From positions 1 to 51,098 of the forward strand of contig WHSV01000016.1 in assembly GCA_009379915.1 (NCBI GenBank): 51,098 bases of DNA, read 5' to 3'. Under the pieces are notes generated by a model. That model made no database searches and was not told the DNA's origin. It saw nothing but the letters and a program-made list of their open reading frames with translations. The position numbers were made by a program, and so were the translations under genes. Positions 8,008 through 48,165 of the stretch are shown piece by piece. Source of the stretch: Actinomycetota bacterium. GTDB lineage: Bacteria > Actinomycetota > CADDZG01 > WHSQ01. Each line of letters begins with the position of its first letter. Positions within the stretch are counted from its first letter, which is position 1.

Positions 8008-8907
8008 TTAGGCCCCCGCACCCTGGATGCGTTCGGCCCCCGAGTAGACGTTGAAGCGTTCGTCGCGCAGGAACCCGACCAGAGACATATTGAAGTTGGT
8101 CGCGACCTCGATGGCCAGGCTGCTCGGGGCCGAAACCGCGCACATGACGGGCACTCCCGCCACGACGCTCTTCTGCGCGAGCTCGAAGCTCGCCCGGCCG
8201 CTTACGAGAACGATGCAGTCGCTCAGTGGGAGCTTCCTCTCGAGCAGAGCCCAACCGAGCAGCTTGTCCAGCGCGTTGTGCCGGCCCACGTCTTCTCGAA
8301 GACCGAGCAGTTCTCCCGTCGAATCGAACAAGCCCGCGGCGTGCAACCCACCGGTTCGCTCGAACACTCCCTGTGCAGCCCGCAACTTTCCCGGAAGCGA
8401 GCAAACGGTCTCGGACTGCACCGTCAGTTCGGAGTCGATACGAGACGCCTTCGTTGCAAGTTGATCGAGCCCGGCTTTGCCACAAACACCGCACGCGCTG
8501 GTGGTGAAGAAATCGCGCTCTATCGAACCAAAATCTCGACGTGGGTCCGGGCGCAGGTGAACGTTGACGATGTTGTACCGCTGTTCTTCGTCGACGTCCC
8601 GGTCGACGCAGTAGGCCATCCTGGTGACATCGTCCGGCCCTCTCACGATCCCCTCGGCTAGAAGCCACCCTGTGGCTAGCTCGAAGTCGTTTCCCGGCGT
8701 TCGCATGGTCACCGAGGAGATGTAGTCATCGCCGATGTGATGGAGGCGGATCTCGAGAGGCTCCTCGGTCGCGACCGCGTCCGAGCGCCGCCTGACCTCT
8801 TCTCTCTCGTAGGTGATCACGCGGGTCCTGGTGGAAGCTCCGGGGCGATTGATGCGCTCCCGCTTGACTTCGGCGGCTTCCCATTCAGATGGTTCTTGAA
8901 TCGCCAT
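8008..8907 (-). CDS. fdhD: Formate dehydrogenase accessory sulfurtransferase FdhD
   Basis: A 299-residue FdhD. The protein passes sulfur from a cysteine desulfurase to the bis-MGD cofactor of formate dehydrogenase. Diagnostic motifs are ATEEPLEIRL near 45, RTPGNDFELATGWLLAEGI near 70, the CxxC loop TTSACGVCGKAG near 140, LREDVGRHNALDKLLGWAL near 220, and LVSGRASFELAQK near 247. The start ATG at 8907 follows a GGGGG stretch and leaves 36 bases to selB, which is transcribed away. Placed between selA and selB, it implies a selenocysteine-containing formate dehydrogenase in the genome. Confidence 0.95.
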   Translation of the reverse strand: MAIQEPSEWEAAEVKRERINRPGASTRTRVITYEREEVRRRSDAVATEEPLEIRLHHIGDDYISSVTMRTPGNDFELATGWLLAEGIVRGPDDVTRMAYCVDRDVDEEQRYNIVNVHLRPDPRRDFGSIERDFFTTSACGVCGKAGLDQLATKASRIDSELTVQSETVCSLPGKLRAAQGVFERTGGLHAAGLFDSTGELLGLREDVGRHNALDKLLGWALLERKLPLSDCIVLVSGRASFELAQKSVVAGVPVMCAVSAPSSLAIEVATNFNMSLVGFLRDERFNVYSGAERIQGAGA

Positions 8908-8931
8908 AACCCCCATCAAATCACGGCCCGC

Positions 8932-8937
8932 TATCGT
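8932..8937 (+). promoter_or_regulatory. -10 hexamer (TATCGT) for selB
   Basis: TATCGT ends six bases before the ATG at 8944, supporting that start and a leaderless mRNA. The 36-bp gap to fdhD must also hold the divergent fdhD start. Confidence 0.45.
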
Positions 8938-8943
8938 GCTGTG

Positions 8944-10773
8944 ATGCACGTCATCGGAACGGCGGGACACGTCGATCACGGGAAATCCACGCTCGTTCTG
9001 CGCCTGACCGGCATCGATCCGGATCGGTTCGAGGAGGAGAAACGGCGGGGACTCACCATCGACCTCGGATTCGCCTGGCTTCCGCTGCCCTCGGGCAACG
9101 AAATCGGCATCATCGACGTTCCAGGACACGAGCGGTTCATCAAGAACATGCTGGCGGGCGCGGGGGGCATCTCGGTGGTGCTGTTCGTGGTCGCCGCCAA
9201 CGAGGGGTGGATGCCGCAGTCGACCGAGCACCTCGCGATCCTCGACGTGCTCGGGATAACGTCCGGCGTGGTGGCCCTCACGAAGGCGGACACAGTCGAT
9301 GCTGAAACGCTCGAAATCGCGCGGCTCGAAACCGAGGAGCATCTCAAGCGCACGCGCCTCGCGAGTTCACCGGTCGTGCCGGTCTCCGCCGTGACGGGAC
9401 TCGGGCTCGAGGAGCTGGTGCTCCGACTCGACGAGGCCGTCCAGAGGGCTCCCGATCCGATAGACCGAGGTAGACCTCGTCTCTGGATCGACCGCGTGTT
9501 CAGCATCTCGGGGGCCGGGACGGTCGTCACGGGGACACTCGCTGGCGGAAGTCTCGAGATTGAACGGGAGATCGAGATCAGCCCCCAGGGTCGCCGCGCG
9601 CGCATTCGCTCGATCCAGAGTCACAAGAAGCAGTTGCAGTCCGTGGGTCCGGCAAATCGAGTTGCGCTGAATCTGGTGGGCCTCGACCGCGGCAGCTCGG
9701 AGCGCGGCGACGCCATCGTCAGTCCATCCAGCTGGAGGCCCACGAGAACCATCGACGCCGAGGTGCGAGTGCTGCCTGAATGGGCGGTGGGTTCGGATCA
9801 CGAACTCACGGAAAAGGGGTCACACCTCCTCTACATCGGCTCGGCCGAAACTCCCGTGCGAGTCAAACTGCTCGAGCCCACATCGATCCGAGCCGGAGAG
9901 AGTGGCTTCGCGCAGCTCTACCTGCGCGACCCTCTGCCCCTGGCACGCGGTGATCGATTCGTACTGCGTGATGCGGGACGCAGGTTGAGTTTCGGTGGCG
10001 GAGTGGTCCTCGATCCTCTGGCGACACGCGCTCAGCGATCCGACAGGAAACGGCTGGCATTGCTCCACCGGCTTGCCGGAGCGTCCGAAGGCGAAGGCTT
10101 AATTGCTCTGGTTGAGGCGGAGGGGCAGTTGAGCGCACACGAGGCTGCGTTGAGGACGGGGCGTTCGGGGACAGAGCCGGGCGTCACTCGGTTGGACGAC
10201 CTCCTGTTATCGGCTCAACGACTCGAAGAGCTCCAGTCGAACGTCCGTCGTCTTCTGCAGGAACACCACGCCGCGAATCCACTCGAGAGTGGGATGACGC
10301 GCGCCGCAGTGCGCGCCGAAACGAGACTCGGGCCGGGCGCCTTCGATGCGCTCGTGGACACCATCGAGGAAGTTGCAGCGGATGGCGCTCTTCTTCGACT
10401 CGAATCACACGCGGTGAGCATGTCTCCCGATCAGCAGCGGGCGCGCGACCGAGTCTTGACCGCCATCCAGTCGGGAGGGTTCACCCCTCCTCTGGCCAAG
10501 GATCTCGATGCCGATTCCGCCCTGCTGCGTGCGCTCGTCGACTCGGGCGAGCTCGTCCGCATCGGCGACTTCTATCTGACTTCGTCGCAGGCGAACGAAG
10601 CGCGCACTCGCGTCAGGATTGCTATCCAGGCCTCAGGACCTCTGACGGTGGCTCAGATCAGAGACCTACTGGGGACCTCACGAAAATACGCAGTCCCCCT
10701 GTGCGAGTGGTTGGACCAGACCGGGGCCACCCTGCGCCAGGGTGACGCCAGGATCCTCGGCCCCCGTCCCTGA
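8944..10773 (+). CDS. selB: Selenocysteine-specific elongation factor SelB
   Basis: A 609-residue translational GTPase that brings Sec-tRNA to UGA codons with a SECIS element. G1 GHVDHGKST at 8-16, the switch I region EEEKRRGLTIDLGFAWL, G3 DVPGHERFIKNMLAG, G4 TKAD. Then come EF-Tu-like beta-barrel domains (WIDRVFSISGAGTVVTGTLAGG) and, from about residue 370, the winged-helix repeats that read the SECIS. The length fits bacterial SelB. A -10-like hexamer fixes the ATG at 8944, although the frame is open upstream to 8737 (antisense to fdhD). Confidence 0.95.
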   Translation: MHVIGTAGHVDHGKSTLVLRLTGIDPDRFEEEKRRGLTIDLGFAWLPLPSGNEIGIIDVPGHERFIKNMLAGAGGISVVLFVVAANEGWMPQSTEHLAILDVLGITSGVVALTKADTVDAETLEIARLETEEHLKRTRLASSPVVPVSAVTGLGLEELVLRLDEAVQRAPDPIDRGRPRLWIDRVFSISGAGTVVTGTLAGGSLEIEREIEISPQGRRARIRSIQSHKKQLQSVGPANRVALNLVGLDRGSSERGDAIVSPSSWRPTRTIDAEVRVLPEWAVGSDHELTEKGSHLLYIGSAETPVRVKLLEPTSIRAGESGFAQLYLRDPLPLARGDRFVLRDAGRRLSFGGGVVLDPLATRAQRSDRKRLALLHRLAGASEGEGLIALVEAEGQLSAHEAALRTGRSGTEPGVTRLDDLLLSAQRLEELQSNVRRLLQEHHAANPLESGMTRAAVRAETRLGPGAFDALVDTIEEVAADGALLRLESHAVSMSPDQQRARDRVLTAIQSGGFTPPLAKDLDADSALLRALVDSGELVRIGDFYLTSSQANEARTRVRIAIQASGPLTVAQIRDLLGTSRKYAVPLCEWLDQTGATLRQGDARILGPRP

Positions 10774-10790: not shown

Positions 10791-10895
10791 GTTTCCCTCA
10801 CGCTACGACGCCCCTTCGGGGCGTCTCCTCTCCCGGCGGCGCTAGAGCGCCGCCGTCGGGTAATGCCCGCGATCGTCGAGACGATCGCTCCTTCC
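10791..10895. repeat. 105-bp structured repeat, copy A
   Basis: Starts with GTTTCCCTCACGCT, then stem 1 (10807-10825, eight pairs), stem 2 (10835-10854, nine pairs), and a part identical to copy B from about 10855 to 10889 that includes stem 3 (GCGATCGTC-GA-GACGATCGC, 10869-10888). Copy B at 45841-45945 has the same length and spacing, with paired changes in stem 1. It fills the gap between selB and the end of the convergent ybdK-type gene. I do not recognise the element. Confidence 0.75.
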
Positions 10896-12079
10896 TACTC
10901 GCCGTGAATTGGATCACCCTTGGCGGGCACTCCGCCGACCAGGTCGCCGTCGCTCAGAGGTCGAGGCTTGCCGCTCTGTAGTTCGTCGACGAGGTGATCG
11001 ACCACGCGGGAGAGGTCACCGAATTCTCTGTAGACCTCACGCTGACGCGTGGCAGACGTTCCGCGGTCGAGAATGTCGTCGATCCCCTTGAGCTCTCTCA
11101 GGCAACCGAGTCTCTCGGCGGTCGGCGCGAGCCGGTCGACGGTGTCACCGATCGAGCGGCGTAGCGACATGACGTTGCCTTCTTCATCGCGAATGATCTC
11201 GGCCTCGAGCCCGTGGCGAGCAGCGCGCCACTTGTTCTCTCTAATCGTCCAGGCCTGATGCTTGAACATGTCGAGTCCCGAGTTGTATCGCTCGGCAAGC
11301 CAGACCACGAGACATTGCGAGAACGCAGTGATCGACGCGATCTCCTCGAGCGAGCTGATCCCGTCACAGATGCGGAGTTCGATCGTCCCGAAGCCGGGGT
11401 GCGGCCGAATGTCCCACCAGACTTCTCGAATACTCCGGATCGTGCCGGCTCCGATCAGAGTGCGCATGAAGCGCTGAAACTCTCCCCAGTTCGCCATCTG
11501 ATATGGCAGGCCCGCGGTTGGCAACGACTCGAAGATCTTGCTCCTGACAGAGGACAGCCCGGAGTCGCGTCCCTGCCAGAAGGGGCTCGAGGTCGACAGC
11601 GCGAGAAAGTGAGGGATGAACGTGCCGAGGCTGTTGCCCACGGCGATCGCCTCTTCGCCGGTGCGCAGGCCGACATGGGTGTGCACACCGAAGATCAAAA
11701 GTCGACGGGCGGTCCACTGGCAGTCCTCGATTAGGCGGTGGTACCGGGGGTCAGGCGACACGGTTTGATCGACCCATGCCGAGAAGGGGTGCGTCCCTGA
11801 CGAGATGATGCGGTAGCCGTAGTTGTCGGCAACCTCGACTAGTCGCTCGAGCTTTCGTTGGAGCTCGCGGCGTGCCGCCTCCACGGTGGGGCAGACGTCG
11901 GTGATGACCTCAATGGTGCACTCGAGTAGCTCGTGCTTGAAGCCGGGTTCACCACGAAGGTCGGCGAGGATCTTGGTGGCGGCCGTGTCGGTGGCGAGCG
12001 CACCCGATTCGTCCACGACTTGGACCTCGATTTCCACTCCGAGCGTTGGTCGTTCGCTTCCGTTGAAAACGATGTCCAA
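10895..12079 (-). CDS. YbdK-type carboxylate-amine ligase (GCS2 family)
   Basis: A 394-residue member of the glutamate-cysteine ligase type 2 family. Signatures: TLGVEIEVQVVD at the N-terminus, the HELLECTIEVIT glutamate-side motif near 50, SSGTHPFSAW near 95, FGVHTHVG near 130, ELRICDG near 240, and ENKWRAARHG near 285. YbdK-like enzymes have weak gamma-glutamylcysteine synthetase activity; the true substrate is often not known. The start has a strong AGGAGGGG site. It follows the MFS gene by 66 bases on the same strand, so the two may be cotranscribed. Confidence 0.88.
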   Translation of the reverse strand: MDIVFNGSERPTLGVEIEVQVVDESGALATDTAATKILADLRGEPGFKHELLECTIEVITDVCPTVEAARRELQRKLERLVEVADNYGYRIISSGTHPFSAWVDQTVSPDPRYHRLIEDCQWTARRLLIFGVHTHVGLRTGEEAIAVGNSLGTFIPHFLALSTSSPFWQGRDSGLSSVRSKIFESLPTAGLPYQMANWGEFQRFMRTLIGAGTIRSIREVWWDIRPHPGFGTIELRICDGISSLEEIASITAFSQCLVVWLAERYNSGLDMFKHQAWTIRENKWRAARHGLEAEIIRDEEGNVMSLRRSIGDTVDRLAPTAERLGCLRELKGIDDILDRGTSATRQREVYREFGDLSRVVDHLVDELQSGKPRPLSDGDLVGGVPAKGDPIHGE

Positions 12080-34515: not shown

Positions 34516-34722
34516 CACCGCCGTCGGTGGATCGACTGTCAGGCGTGGCACACAGCGACTTACTTCCGCCCTGGCGCGCTCGTCGAGACGATCGCTGGTT
34601 GACCCGGCGCACCCCTTAACGAATCGAGAACAGGAGACGAAATCGAAGTGACTTCGTCCACCTGCGCCCGCTCACAACCCCGTCGTCAAACTATGCTCTT
34701 AACCAGGAGAAACGAACACAAC

Positions 34723-45491: not shown

Positions 45492-45824
45492 CTACATGCC
45501 CGGGAGGCCGAGCCCCCCGAGTCCTCCGGCGAGCGGCCCCATTGCCTGAGCTTGTGCCTCGCGCGCCTTGTCCAACGCGTCGTTCACCGCCGCGGTGACC
45601 GTATCGCCGAGCATCTCGAGGTCGTCTGAATCCGGCTCGCCGTCGAATGTGTCGGGGCTGATGGTGACGGAAACGATCTGCTGGTCGCCCGTCGCAACCA
45701 CCTTCACTGCTCCACCGCCGGCGCTGCCCTCGATCTCGATCTCGGCAAGAGCGTCCTGTGCCTTCTGCATGTCGGCGGCCATCTTCTGCGCCTGCTTCAT
45801 CATCTTCTGCATGTCTTTGCTCAT
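45492..45824 (-). CDS. YbaB/EbfC family nucleoid-associated protein
   Basis: A 110-residue protein with an N-terminal coiled helix ([19 protein letters not shown]) and [20 protein letters not shown]. The tail is Gly- and Met-rich ([13 protein letters not shown]). Dimers bind DNA. I chose the ATG at 45824, seven bases after AAAGGA; the frame opens to 45884 through a repeat element, so the longer form is unlikely. Confidence 0.92.
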
Positions 45825-45840
45825 CTGGATGTCCTTTTCC

Positions 45841-45945
45841 GTTTCCCTCACGCTCCGAGGCCTCGTCGAGGCCTCTCCACTCACGCCTGCGACGAAGCGC
45901 AGCCGTCGGGTAATGCCCGCGATCGTCGAGACGATCGCTTCCTTT
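45841..45945. repeat. 105-bp structured repeat, copy B
   Basis: Same length and start (GTTTCCCTCACGCT) as copy A at 10791-10895. Stem 1 is GAGGCCTC-GTC-GAGGCCTC (45857-45875), with different bases but eight intact pairs. Stem 2 (45885-45904) keeps most pairs with one mismatch. Stem 3 and the GTCGGGTAATGCCCGCG segment are identical. It fills the gap between dnaX and ybaB. Confidence 0.75.
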
Positions 45946-45957
45946 TCCGTTTCCCGA

Positions 45958-47724
45958 TCAATTCTCCTCGACCTCTCTCACGACCTCCGCGTCGAGGCCC
46001 TTCTTGACTAGCTCGACTGGATCGTGGTCCACGTCTATCGCCTCCGCCGCGTCTGCGTATGAGCCTCCACCCTCGGACTTGGAACCGGTTGATGGATCCC
46101 CGCCCGGCTGTGATCCCGTCTCACTATCGAGCGGCTGGGCTCCGCGCTCGGCAAAGCGCAAGAACGGCTTGAGCCCGAGCGCCGCGTAGAGCGCGTCGGA
46201 CAGGATCAGCGAATTGGGCTCCTTGGCCATCTGGCCCGCATGAAACGTGGACTGCACCTCGACGACCAGGCCGTCCGAGTCGTAAGCGACCGGCTGTGAT
46301 GGCTTGAGGAACGCCGCCACGCGTTTGCTGCGCTGAGCGACCTCCTTCATCGCCGAGGGCCAAGCGTCCTTGATGTGACCGAGCCCGAGGTGATCCACAC
46401 CCGCCGCGGGTTGCTCGACCGTCGCCGGCTCAGGTGCCTGTCCAGATTCGGCGACCTCGGGAGGAGTCACATCCGTTTGCTCGCTCGGAGGCGCGGTGGG
46501 CTCGCCCACGCGCGGTCGATCGTCCTTCGAGCGAGTCTGCGGCGGCACCTGCGGCGGGACGTTGACTGATTCTCCTTCGAGACCGATGCGGCGCTCGAGT
46601 CGCTCGATGCGACCGATGAGCCCTTCGGCAGTCAGGTCCGTCTCGGGAGAAGTGCTGCGCGTGAGCGCAACCTCGAGGAACAGCCGGTGGTTCGGCGCGT
46701 TCCGCATTTCGGTGATCGCCTTACCTACGAGCTCGAGCAACCGGACGAGCCCCCCGATACGGAATCTCCCTGCTTGGTCGGCGAGCCGCTGCCGATCCTC
46801 GGCGTGAACGTCGAGCAGATCCCCGGCCTGAGGCGCGGTCTTGAGCAGCATCAGCGCTCGTGCGTGATTCAGAGTTCCGAGCGCAAGCTGTCGCACGTCG
46901 GCACCCTGGGCGATCATCGCATCGAGAGTCGTGAAGACCGTACCGATGTCGGCGTCCGCGATCGCGTCGAACATCTGTACGAACGCGTCCTCGCCACGCT
47001 CGCCCAGCAGCCGCTCGGCGGCCTCGACTGTGATGTGACCCTCGAGACTACGGAGCTGATCCAACGCCGACTGTGCATCTCGGGCGCTTCCCTCGGCGTG
47101 ACGGGCGACGACCTCGAGCGCCTCGGGATCGATGTCGATGCCCTCTCGCTTGGCGTTATCCGAGAGAAGATCGATGAGCGTATTCAAGGGCATCCGGCGA
47201 AAGTCGAAGCGCTGGGTCCGAGACACGATCGTTGGAAGCACCTTGTGCGCCTCGGTGGTCGCGAGCACGAAAATGACGTGGTCCGGTGGCTCCTCGAGTG
47301 TCTTCAGAAGCGCGTTGAAGGACTGCGTCGTCAGCATATGGACCTCGTCGATGACGTAAACCTTCTTGCGGCCCCCGGCGGAGGCGAGTGGAACACCCGA
47401 GAGAATCTCGCGCGTCTCGTCGACCCCCGAGTGACTCGCCGCATCCATCTCGAAGACATCCATAGACGAGCCGCGCGCGATGGCAACGCACGACTCGCAT
47501 TTCCCGCACGGGTTCGGAGTTGGGCCCTGCTCGCAGTTCAGCGCCTTGGCGAGGATCCGCGCGGTCGAGGTCTTGCCGGTTCCCCGGGGCCCGGTGAAGA
47601 GGTACGCGTGCGCCACGCGATCCTCGGTTATGGCGTTCGCGAGGGTGGTCGAAACATGCTCCTGACCCAGGATCTCCGAGAAGGTCTGGGGCCGATACTT
47701 GCGATAGAGGGAGACGTACGCCAT
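45958..47724 (-). CDS. dnaX: DNA polymerase III tau/gamma subunit
   Basis: A 588-residue clamp-loader ATPase: SLYRKYRPQTFSEILGQEH, Walker A GPRGTGKTSTARILA, the zinc module CGKCESCVAI, Walker B VYVIDEVHML, sensor 1 LATTEAHKV. Domain III ends near 365; the tail (Pro/Glu/Thr-rich) links to the tau-like C-terminus. It has no obvious slippery A-run for making gamma. The ATG at 47724 follows a TACTAT hexamer by seven bases; an in-frame ATG at 47733 lies within that hexamer. Next upstream is the SRP RNA. Confidence 0.95.
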   Translation of the reverse strand: MAYVSLYRKYRPQTFSEILGQEHVSTTLANAITEDRVAHAYLFTGPRGTGKTSTARILAKALNCEQGPTPNPCGKCESCVAIARGSSMDVFEMDAASHSGVDETREILSGVPLASAGGRKKVYVIDEVHMLTTQSFNALLKTLEEPPDHVIFVLATTEAHKVLPTIVSRTQRFDFRRMPLNTLIDLLSDNAKREGIDIDPEALEVVARHAEGSARDAQSALDQLRSLEGHITVEAAERLLGERGEDAFVQMFDAIADADIGTVFTTLDAMIAQGADVRQLALGTLNHARALMLLKTAPQAGDLLDVHAEDRQRLADQAGRFRIGGLVRLLELVGKAITEMRNAPNHRLFLEVALTRSTSPETDLTAEGLIGRIERLERRIGLEGESVNVPPQVPPQTRSKDDRPRVGEPTAPPSEQTDVTPPEVAESGQAPEPATVEQPAAGVDHLGLGHIKDAWPSAMKEVAQRSKRVAAFLKPSQPVAYDSDGLVVEVQSTFHAGQMAKEPNSLILSDALYAALGLKPFLRFAERGAQPLDSETGSQPGGDPSTGSKSEGGGSYADAAEAIDVDHDPVELVKKGLDAEVVREVEEN

Positions 47725-47731
47725 GCGGGCC

Positions 47732-47737
47732 ATAGTA
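47732..47737 (-). promoter_or_regulatory. -10 hexamer (TACTAT) for dnaX
   Basis: TACTAT on the minus strand ends seven bases before the ATG at 47724. Confidence 0.45.
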
Positions 47738-47895
47738 GCGACAGATGCTATTTCGCTCCCCCTCGGGGGTATTGGGTCTGACAACCGCCCACCGGTACTC
47801 AGGCCACAAAACGTGTCGCTAGGACGCGAAGAAGGCCGTGCGGTTCGTCTTGGACCACTGAATGGCCGGCGCTGGCCCGGCAGCTGGCTCCGGGC

Positions 47896-47993
47896 GGGCG
47901 ACCCTGACGGCACACTCGGGGACACCGCTTAAGGCTGCTCCCTTCCGGGCCTGACCTGGTTCGCGGCTCCGAGTCGCGTAGGACCCGACCATC
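47896..47993 (-). ncRNA. ffs: Signal recognition particle RNA (4.5S type)
   Basis: The minus strand holds CCAGGTCAGGCCCGGAAGGG followed by AGCAGCCTTAAG, the conserved Ffh-binding loop and asymmetric internal loop of bacterial SRP RNA, with arms ACTCGG and CCGAGT further out. No Alu domain is visible. The ends are estimated from the pairing. It lies between dnaX and tRNA-Ser, the usual place. Confidence 0.88.
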
Positions 47994-48165
47994 AACACTG
48001 CTTACCGGGGGCTGCCCGGTCCTTCAGAGGCCGCAGACGAACCTTCAACCCGGCGTATCGAGGGATTTCCGGTACAGGGGACCCCGAGCCCCCCGTCTAG
48101 CACGGCCGCGCGTAGCTTACGGCTCCTGGGACCCCAAGCGTTTCGCCGCCGGGGACGCGACAAAG

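Follow-up and report, generated by a model that had tools for sequence, protein, structure and literature searches.

A dispersed, probably mobile intercistronic repeat with a CUCG-loop hairpin in an actinobacterial genome

The window of this study, a stretch of 51,098 nucleotides, makes up one of the 158 contigs in the 3.39-Mb draft genome of an Actinomycetota bacterium (labelled G000). The first-pass annotation had described here a 105-bp structured element in two copies, and both were found in place with the sequences as described (Table 1): GTTTCCCTCACGCT opens both, CCGTCGGGTAATGCCCGCGATCGTCGAGACGATCGCT is present in both, and the first of the two described stems (P4 in this report), GACGCCCC/GGGGCGTC in copy 1 and GAGGCCTC/GAGGCCTC in copy 2, keeps 8 of 8 pairs in each copy with two covarying pairs. 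Copy 2 was recovered by BLAST as a match of copy 1 (E=3e-26), a level that is not reached by chance. The bounds were corrected, the conserved unit as defined by a covariance model covering the two intervals listed in Table 1 instead of the full 105 bp. The proposed location next to a gene's 3' end applies to copy 1, which lies between the converging 3' ends of the selB and GCS2 genes and has no start codon after it, whereas copy 2 lies between the dnaX 3' end and the ybaB start. The minus strand was taken as the sense strand of the element, because flanking genes start after it on that strand. A search of the window for the palindrome within the element gave 9 matches against 0.08 expected. 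The selB-like gene suggests selenoprotein synthesis, and tRNA-Sec was not found within the window; a large bacterial SRP RNA (RF01854) lies at 47836-48105, and a tRNA-Ser/Arg gene cluster at the right end of the window.

Table 1. Repeat copies, their parts and the neighbouring genes in the window
Feature	Position	Strand	Basis
Full-length copy 1, order P1 - GGGCATTACCCG - P3 - P4 - GTGAGGGAAAC	10791-10889	- (sense)	Covariance-model match, E 2.8e-19; BLAST
P1 hairpin of copy 1, GCGATCGT-CUCG-ACGATCGC (20-bp palindrome)	10869-10888	-	42 exact genome copies
P3 stem-loop of copy 1	10834-10855	-	Sequence, covariation
P4 stem-loop of copy 1 (GACGCCCC/GGGGCGTC)	10807-10825	-	Sequence, covariation
Conserved 3' end of copy 1, GTGAGGGAAAC, Shine-Dalgarno-like; no gene after it here	10791-10801	-	
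Full-length copy 2, in the dnaX stop / ybaB start interval	45841-45939	-	Covariance-model match, E 6.8e-19
P1 hairpin of copy 2	45919-45938	-	Sequence, palindrome match
P3 stem-loop of copy 2 (bounds approximate)	45883-45905	-	Sequence, covariation
P4 stem-loop of copy 2 (GAGGCCTC/GAGGCCTC)	45857-45875	-	Sequence, covariation
16-bp direct repeat flanking copy 2, GGGAAACGGAAAAGGA	45832-45847 + 45941-45956	-	Coordinates read from sequence
Palindrome-only copy GCGATCGTCTCGACGAGCGC, upstream of a phoU-like minus-strand gene	34576-34595	-	
Palindrome-only copy GCGATCGTCTCGGCGATCGC, 27 nt before an asd-like minus-strand start codon	43432-43451	-	
selB-like gene, converging on copy 1	8737-10773	+	Pfam
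GCS2 (glutamate-cysteine ligase family) gene, stop codon 6 nt upstream (sense) of copy 1	10895-12079	-	Pfam
dnaX, upstream neighbour of copy 2	45958-47925	-	Pfam
ybaB-like gene, downstream neighbour of copy 2	45492-45824	-	Start codon read from sequence

The element is not confined to these two copies and belongs to a dispersed family of repeats, many of which are partial. With copy 1 as the BLAST query, 45 matches were obtained in its own genome, i.e. copy 2 and 43 further places. A covariance model built from 24 full copies identified a total of 26 full-length copies in the same 3.39-Mb genome (E <= 1.6e-11), together with many palindrome-only matches. The palindrome GCGATCGTCTCGACGATCGC is present in 42 exact and about 18-20 near (one-mismatch) copies, and its reversed control pattern gave no match in this genome; among the sites at contig ends, C86 start/C48 end and C68 end/C107 end may each be one locus counted twice. 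When perfect hairpins with 8-bp stems and 4-nt loops were collected from 0.73 Mb of G000, 25 carried the CUCG loop, of which 24 were intergenic, and the other listed loops were found at most 3 times each. Further copies and an excess of covariation, on which the first-pass annotation had made its claim depend, were both looked for and both found.

Written in the direction of the neighbouring genes, a full copy reads A - P1 (8 bp, loop CUCG) - NNGCAUURCCCG - P3 - GA - P4 - GNGAGGGRAAC, with P4 enclosed by a GC pair and a GNA/GNA internal loop. The CUCG loop agrees with the YNMG tetraloop class. Full copies are of two subtypes, UUACCC...GUGAGGGAAAC and UUGCCC...GGGAGGGGAAC. Partial copies lack P3 and P4 (L026, L027 and L029/L030) or are reduced to P1. 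A composite repeat of about 180 bp, in which the element is joined to a GC-rich hairpin on its 5' side (GGCGGAGCTCCGCTGCGCCTCGCCGAGCGAAAGGC) and a terminator-like one on its 3' side (CCCGCCCTTCGGGCGGGC), was observed at L011, L013, L014, L016, L029 and L030, at the last two without P3 and P4.

The proposal that structure is kept under changed sequence was borne out by the 24 full copies. In their alignment (A1), 93% of the cells are paired and 11 pairs show double changes; the covariation score is 0.181 versus 0.080 in shuffles, none of the 500 shuffles reached any of the measures, and all slid controls stayed far lower. The variation is concentrated in P3 and P4; P1 and the CCC:GGG pairing hardly vary within the genome, so that covariation neither supports nor refutes these two. 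The CCC:GGG pairing, which would close a three-way junction, was proposed by RNAalifold, and its mean probability in single-sequence folding (partition function) is 0.08. Masking of the ribosome-binding site by this pairing was rejected on the partition functions, and regulation by such masking is for this reason not claimed.

The placement of the copies relative to genes was analyzed with gene calls from a home-made codon-usage script, the genome surveys covering 0.73 Mb in addition to the searches. As many as 59 of the 63 palindrome sites lie outside called genes (p~1e-47), even though coding sequence makes up 87% of the 0.73 Mb. The nearest downstream gene is co-directional with the hairpin in 51 of 58 cases (p=2e-9) and the upstream gene in 42 of 52 (p=9e-6). 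Among the 13 full copies that have a co-directional start codon within 30 nt, 12 carry the conserved GRGGGRAAC end 3-12 nt before it; this end is Shine-Dalgarno-like and may bind ribosomes. The neighbouring genes include rplF, rpsQ, rplN, secA, miaB, trpE, ftsH, coaBC, a korB-like gene, enoyl-CoA hydratases and phoU, their functions being read from the sequences and not all profile-confirmed (Pfam for four genes of the window). These neighbours are unrelated housekeeping genes and not a regulon of one function.

This placement bears on the possibility that the element is a cis-regulatory RNA, a riboswitch or protein-binding leader of a regulon, in which a trans factor would bind the CUCG hairpin and the element would gate the ribosome-binding site. 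The sense orientation ahead of start codons, the covarying stems around a fixed loop and the Shine-Dalgarno-like end within the element all agree with such a role. So do two gene junctions shared with relatives: at the rpoZ-coaBC junction a CUCG hairpin lies at the upstream stop codon in both G000 (L051, C58) and G014 (L307, C44), with two compensatory stem changes, and at the junction of a MaoC-type pair a hairpin is present in both G000 and G009. However, these are the only two junctions shared between genera, a number near chance by rough estimate, and the downstream genes have no function in common, on which ground a riboswitch-type regulon was rejected. No gene follows copy 1 of the window or a few of the other copies, masking of the GGG is not predicted, and tandem and truncated copies are common; we consider this role unlikely. 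A look-alike of the TPP riboswitch on the plus strand (GGGTAATGCCCGCGA) was also dropped, having no Rfam match and lying opposite to the strand of the genes.

Traces compatible with movement were recognized at several copies. C57 carries two tandem copies with a 137-bp period. AGTCGCTATAGCAAGTGGGA stands before each of them and also forms the reading frame immediately behind the new start codon; this direct repeat of 20 bp lies inside the reading frame, and the sequence preceding the first copy (ATGACGCGCAGTCGC...) looks like a former start of the same gene. The 16-bp repeat that flanks copy 2 overlaps the element's own GGGAAAC end, ATGA or TTGA is present on both sides at L018, L023, L024 and L077, and in C133 (L074) a diverged 26-nt copy of the gene start precedes the hairpin. 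Most copies lack clear flanking direct repeats, and where these occur their length ranges from 8 to 26 bp; they could therefore have arisen by local duplication and not by duplication of a target site. Several copies lie at ATGA stop/start overlaps. In 6 of 13 copies, an ORF begins immediately ahead of P1 and its end overlaps the next start codon by 4 or 1 nt, as compared with 18% of controls in which left and right halves were re-paired (permutation p=0.011).

Intercistronic hairpins that process or stabilize mRNA, in a role like that of REP/BIME with mobility long over, would also be stable hairpins between co-directional genes, ribosomal-protein operons included, as is the case here. Such a role by itself leaves the flanking duplications, the tandem copies and the coupled ORFs unexplained, and we regard this reading as very unlikely.

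Relatives of the repeat were then sought in other genomes, all those compared being from other genera than the source genome. The full-element pattern gave no match in the remaining GTDB representatives and the viral contigs that were searched, and the full model, in a scan of 396 genomes of the phylum, identified one further genome, G008 (genus g9, same family; E 6e-6). The G008 copy consists of GCGATCCT-CUCG-AGGATCGC followed by GAGCATTG, a new P3 (CACCGACC-GCAA-GGTCGGTG) and a new P4, all three stems being altered yet still paired. A hairpin-only model (8 bp, CUCG, variable stems) gave at E <= 1 a total of 104 matches in G000, 40 in G010, 36 in G014, 35 in G009, 34 in G007 and 18 in G012, counts that are enriched for these genomes because the model was trained on their hairpins, for which the noise level of the outgroups, 1-6 matches in the other two families of the class, serves as the control. 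At E <= 0.002, more than 3 matches were found among 296 actinobacterial genomes only in members of this family. Exact palindromes in other bacteria are mostly single and inside genes, and are therefore regarded as chance matches; the exception is MAG MGR_bin171, with the same coordinates as G009. The stems vary between and within genera (CCGGTCGT, CGGATCGT, CGGGTCGT, GCGATCCT, GCGGTCGC and others), the loop stays CUCG, and the flanks AGAAG/AGGAA and CAGAAC/GGGAAAC are constant across the stem variants; this comparison is descriptive, since loop and pairing were the criteria by which the hairpins had been chosen.

For the earlier suggestion of selection on RNA or cruciform DNA, a structural constraint is thus supported, and orientation to genes bears on the choice between RNA and DNA. 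The strong sense orientation in G000 favours a constraint at the transcript level, whereas in genus g8 (G007/G014) the hairpin and the downstream gene gave an orientation ratio of 22:12 (p=0.12), no significant sense bias, so that a DNA form may also apply and the evidence for a transcript constraint does not extend to the whole family. A site acting at the DNA level, where the palindrome would bind a dimeric protein or extrude as a cruciform or single-stranded hairpin in chromosome organisation or as a transposase substrate, gains from this result in g8, from the near symmetry of the palindrome and from the existence of hairpin-recognising transposases for REPs (PMC3733652). A dimer site would not, however, hold its off-centre TC in sense 51 of 58 times, and stems that change across subfamilies around a constant loop are unlike a sequence-specific dimer operator; this explanation is hardly probable.

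With respect to known families, the absence of a fitting one noted in the first-pass annotation holds for Rfam, the covariance models of which gave, at the gathering cut-off and at E<=10, chance matches only and none at the locus; REP and MIRU repeats are nevertheless close functional analogues. REPs are intergenic palindromes of 20-40 bp with stem subfamilies, and untagged REP-like families have been noted in M. tuberculosis and others (PMC3733652). The GTAG-REPs among them require a GTAG tag and are linked to RAYT transposases. The present element shares with REP/BIME the palindromic core of 20-40 bp, the intergenic location, high copy number, clusters and stem subfamilies with alternative complementary residues, and shows the general REP-like features of high copy, intergenic position and stem-loop. 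It differs from REP/BIME of the RAYT/TnpA-REP type in that its clusters are head-to-tail direct repeats and not head-to-head dimers. No unpaired GTAG tag was found at the end of the palindrome, which is flanked by AGGAA/AGAAG on the 5' side and GGGAAAC/CAGAAC on the 3' side. The Y1 transposase (IS200-like, RAYT; PF01797) was detected in none of the 16 family genomes, G000 included, all of which are drafts, and RAYT/IS200 was rejected as the mover on this absence; reverse transcriptase was rejected as well, because the presence of RVT_1 does not track the number of hairpins.

The CGTC-REPs (PMC3733652) are alike in stems of 8-9 bp, loops of 4-5 nt and the lack of a dedicated transposase, and some copies here also have CCA beside the stem; in contrast, CGTC lies here within the stem-loop and not as an unpaired end tag, the stem GCGATCGT does not start with AT pairs, and the clusters are direct repeats instead of head-to-head dimers. 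Correia/NEMIS, ERIC and other transcribed MITEs are likewise folding, transcribed intergenic repeats, but the core is much shorter here, and terminal inverted repeats enclosing the whole unit were not observed. MIRUs insert at start codons and are coupled at a spacing of -4, i.e. by an ATGA overlap (PMC12548453). The element resembles them as a short repeat (here about 100 bp) inside operons of an actinobacterial host, with tandem copies and co-directional with its flanking genes (51/58 downstream, 42/52 upstream). Start-codon insertion with an internal ORF coupled by ATGA overlap may be a further point in common, such an ORF being present in 6 of 13 testable copies and absent from the others. 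Unlike MIRU, the element has as its basis a CUCG hairpin whose stems covary, and the two were compared by behaviour. As the GTAG tag, RAYT and the CGTC tag are all lacking, the element was filed as a REP/MIRU-like repeat outside the named families.

Taken together, the findings are best explained by a dispersed and probably mobile intercistronic repeat, comparable in kind to REPs and MIRUs, of which the element is one copy. The copies look like a new clade-specific repeat family, in which the hairpin loop is kept and the stem drifts by paired changes. Copy number, placement, orientation, covariation, the distance of the 3' end from start codons and, at some copies, flanking duplications were observed; we infer mobility, ribosome binding, translational coupling and a hairpin recogniser, as follows. 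The mobile core would be the short hairpin of 8 bp with its CUCG loop, flanked by purine-rich sequence; about 26 copies in this lineage have in addition a second module of P3 and P4 ending in GRGGGRAAC. Copies would land at stop/start junctions mainly in the sense orientation, the core being recognized or conserved through its shape and loop. Insertions would be tolerated because the 3' end supplies a normally spaced ribosome-binding site. In several copies a further reason would be that the former start codon now opens a short ORF, which terminates on the following start codon (ATGA) and so keeps translation coupled; sense insertions between co-directional genes may survive as the next gene is still translated. 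The stems would be kept by selection on a folded single strand, most likely mRNA, the alternative being a single-stranded DNA form seen by the mobiliser. In a more specific version, an undescribed enzyme would spread the repeats by reading hairpin shape and the CUCG loop and not stem sequence, so that stems would evolve genus by genus through paired changes, and it would place copies at stop/start junctions, to which they bring their own ribosome-binding site; this is put forward as a tentative and still doubtful proposal.

This family adds a clade-specific and structurally constrained member to the few bacterial repeats that live in operons without breaking them. The constant CUCG loop and the stems re-paired across genera amount to a natural covariation experiment on recognition by a mobiliser or RNA-binding factor, and the absence of a Y1 transposase makes the family relevant to how such palindromes spread.

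Some additional observations were made in the course of this survey. In G003, a draft genome of the same taxonomic family, eight RVT_1 matches were found, far above its relatives. A second hairpin subfamily, GCGGTCGC-CUCG-GCGACCGC with the flanks ATCTGTC...GGGNAACCTGTAGCAGA, was identified at L245 (G000:C39:14793-15056), C48:1748, C141:1238 and C157:4942, the C39 hairpins forming four tandem copies with an 81-bp period. The 16S rRNA gene of the source genome (L082, G000:C46:25500-28546) carries two group I introns at 1183-1590 and 2288-2610 (Rfam RF00028, 51 and 72 bits), which are rare in bacteria, and the first of them holds a copy of the palindrome (L082:1506-1525) within a longer hairpin, CCAATTGGTCTCC...GGGGAGAATTGG.
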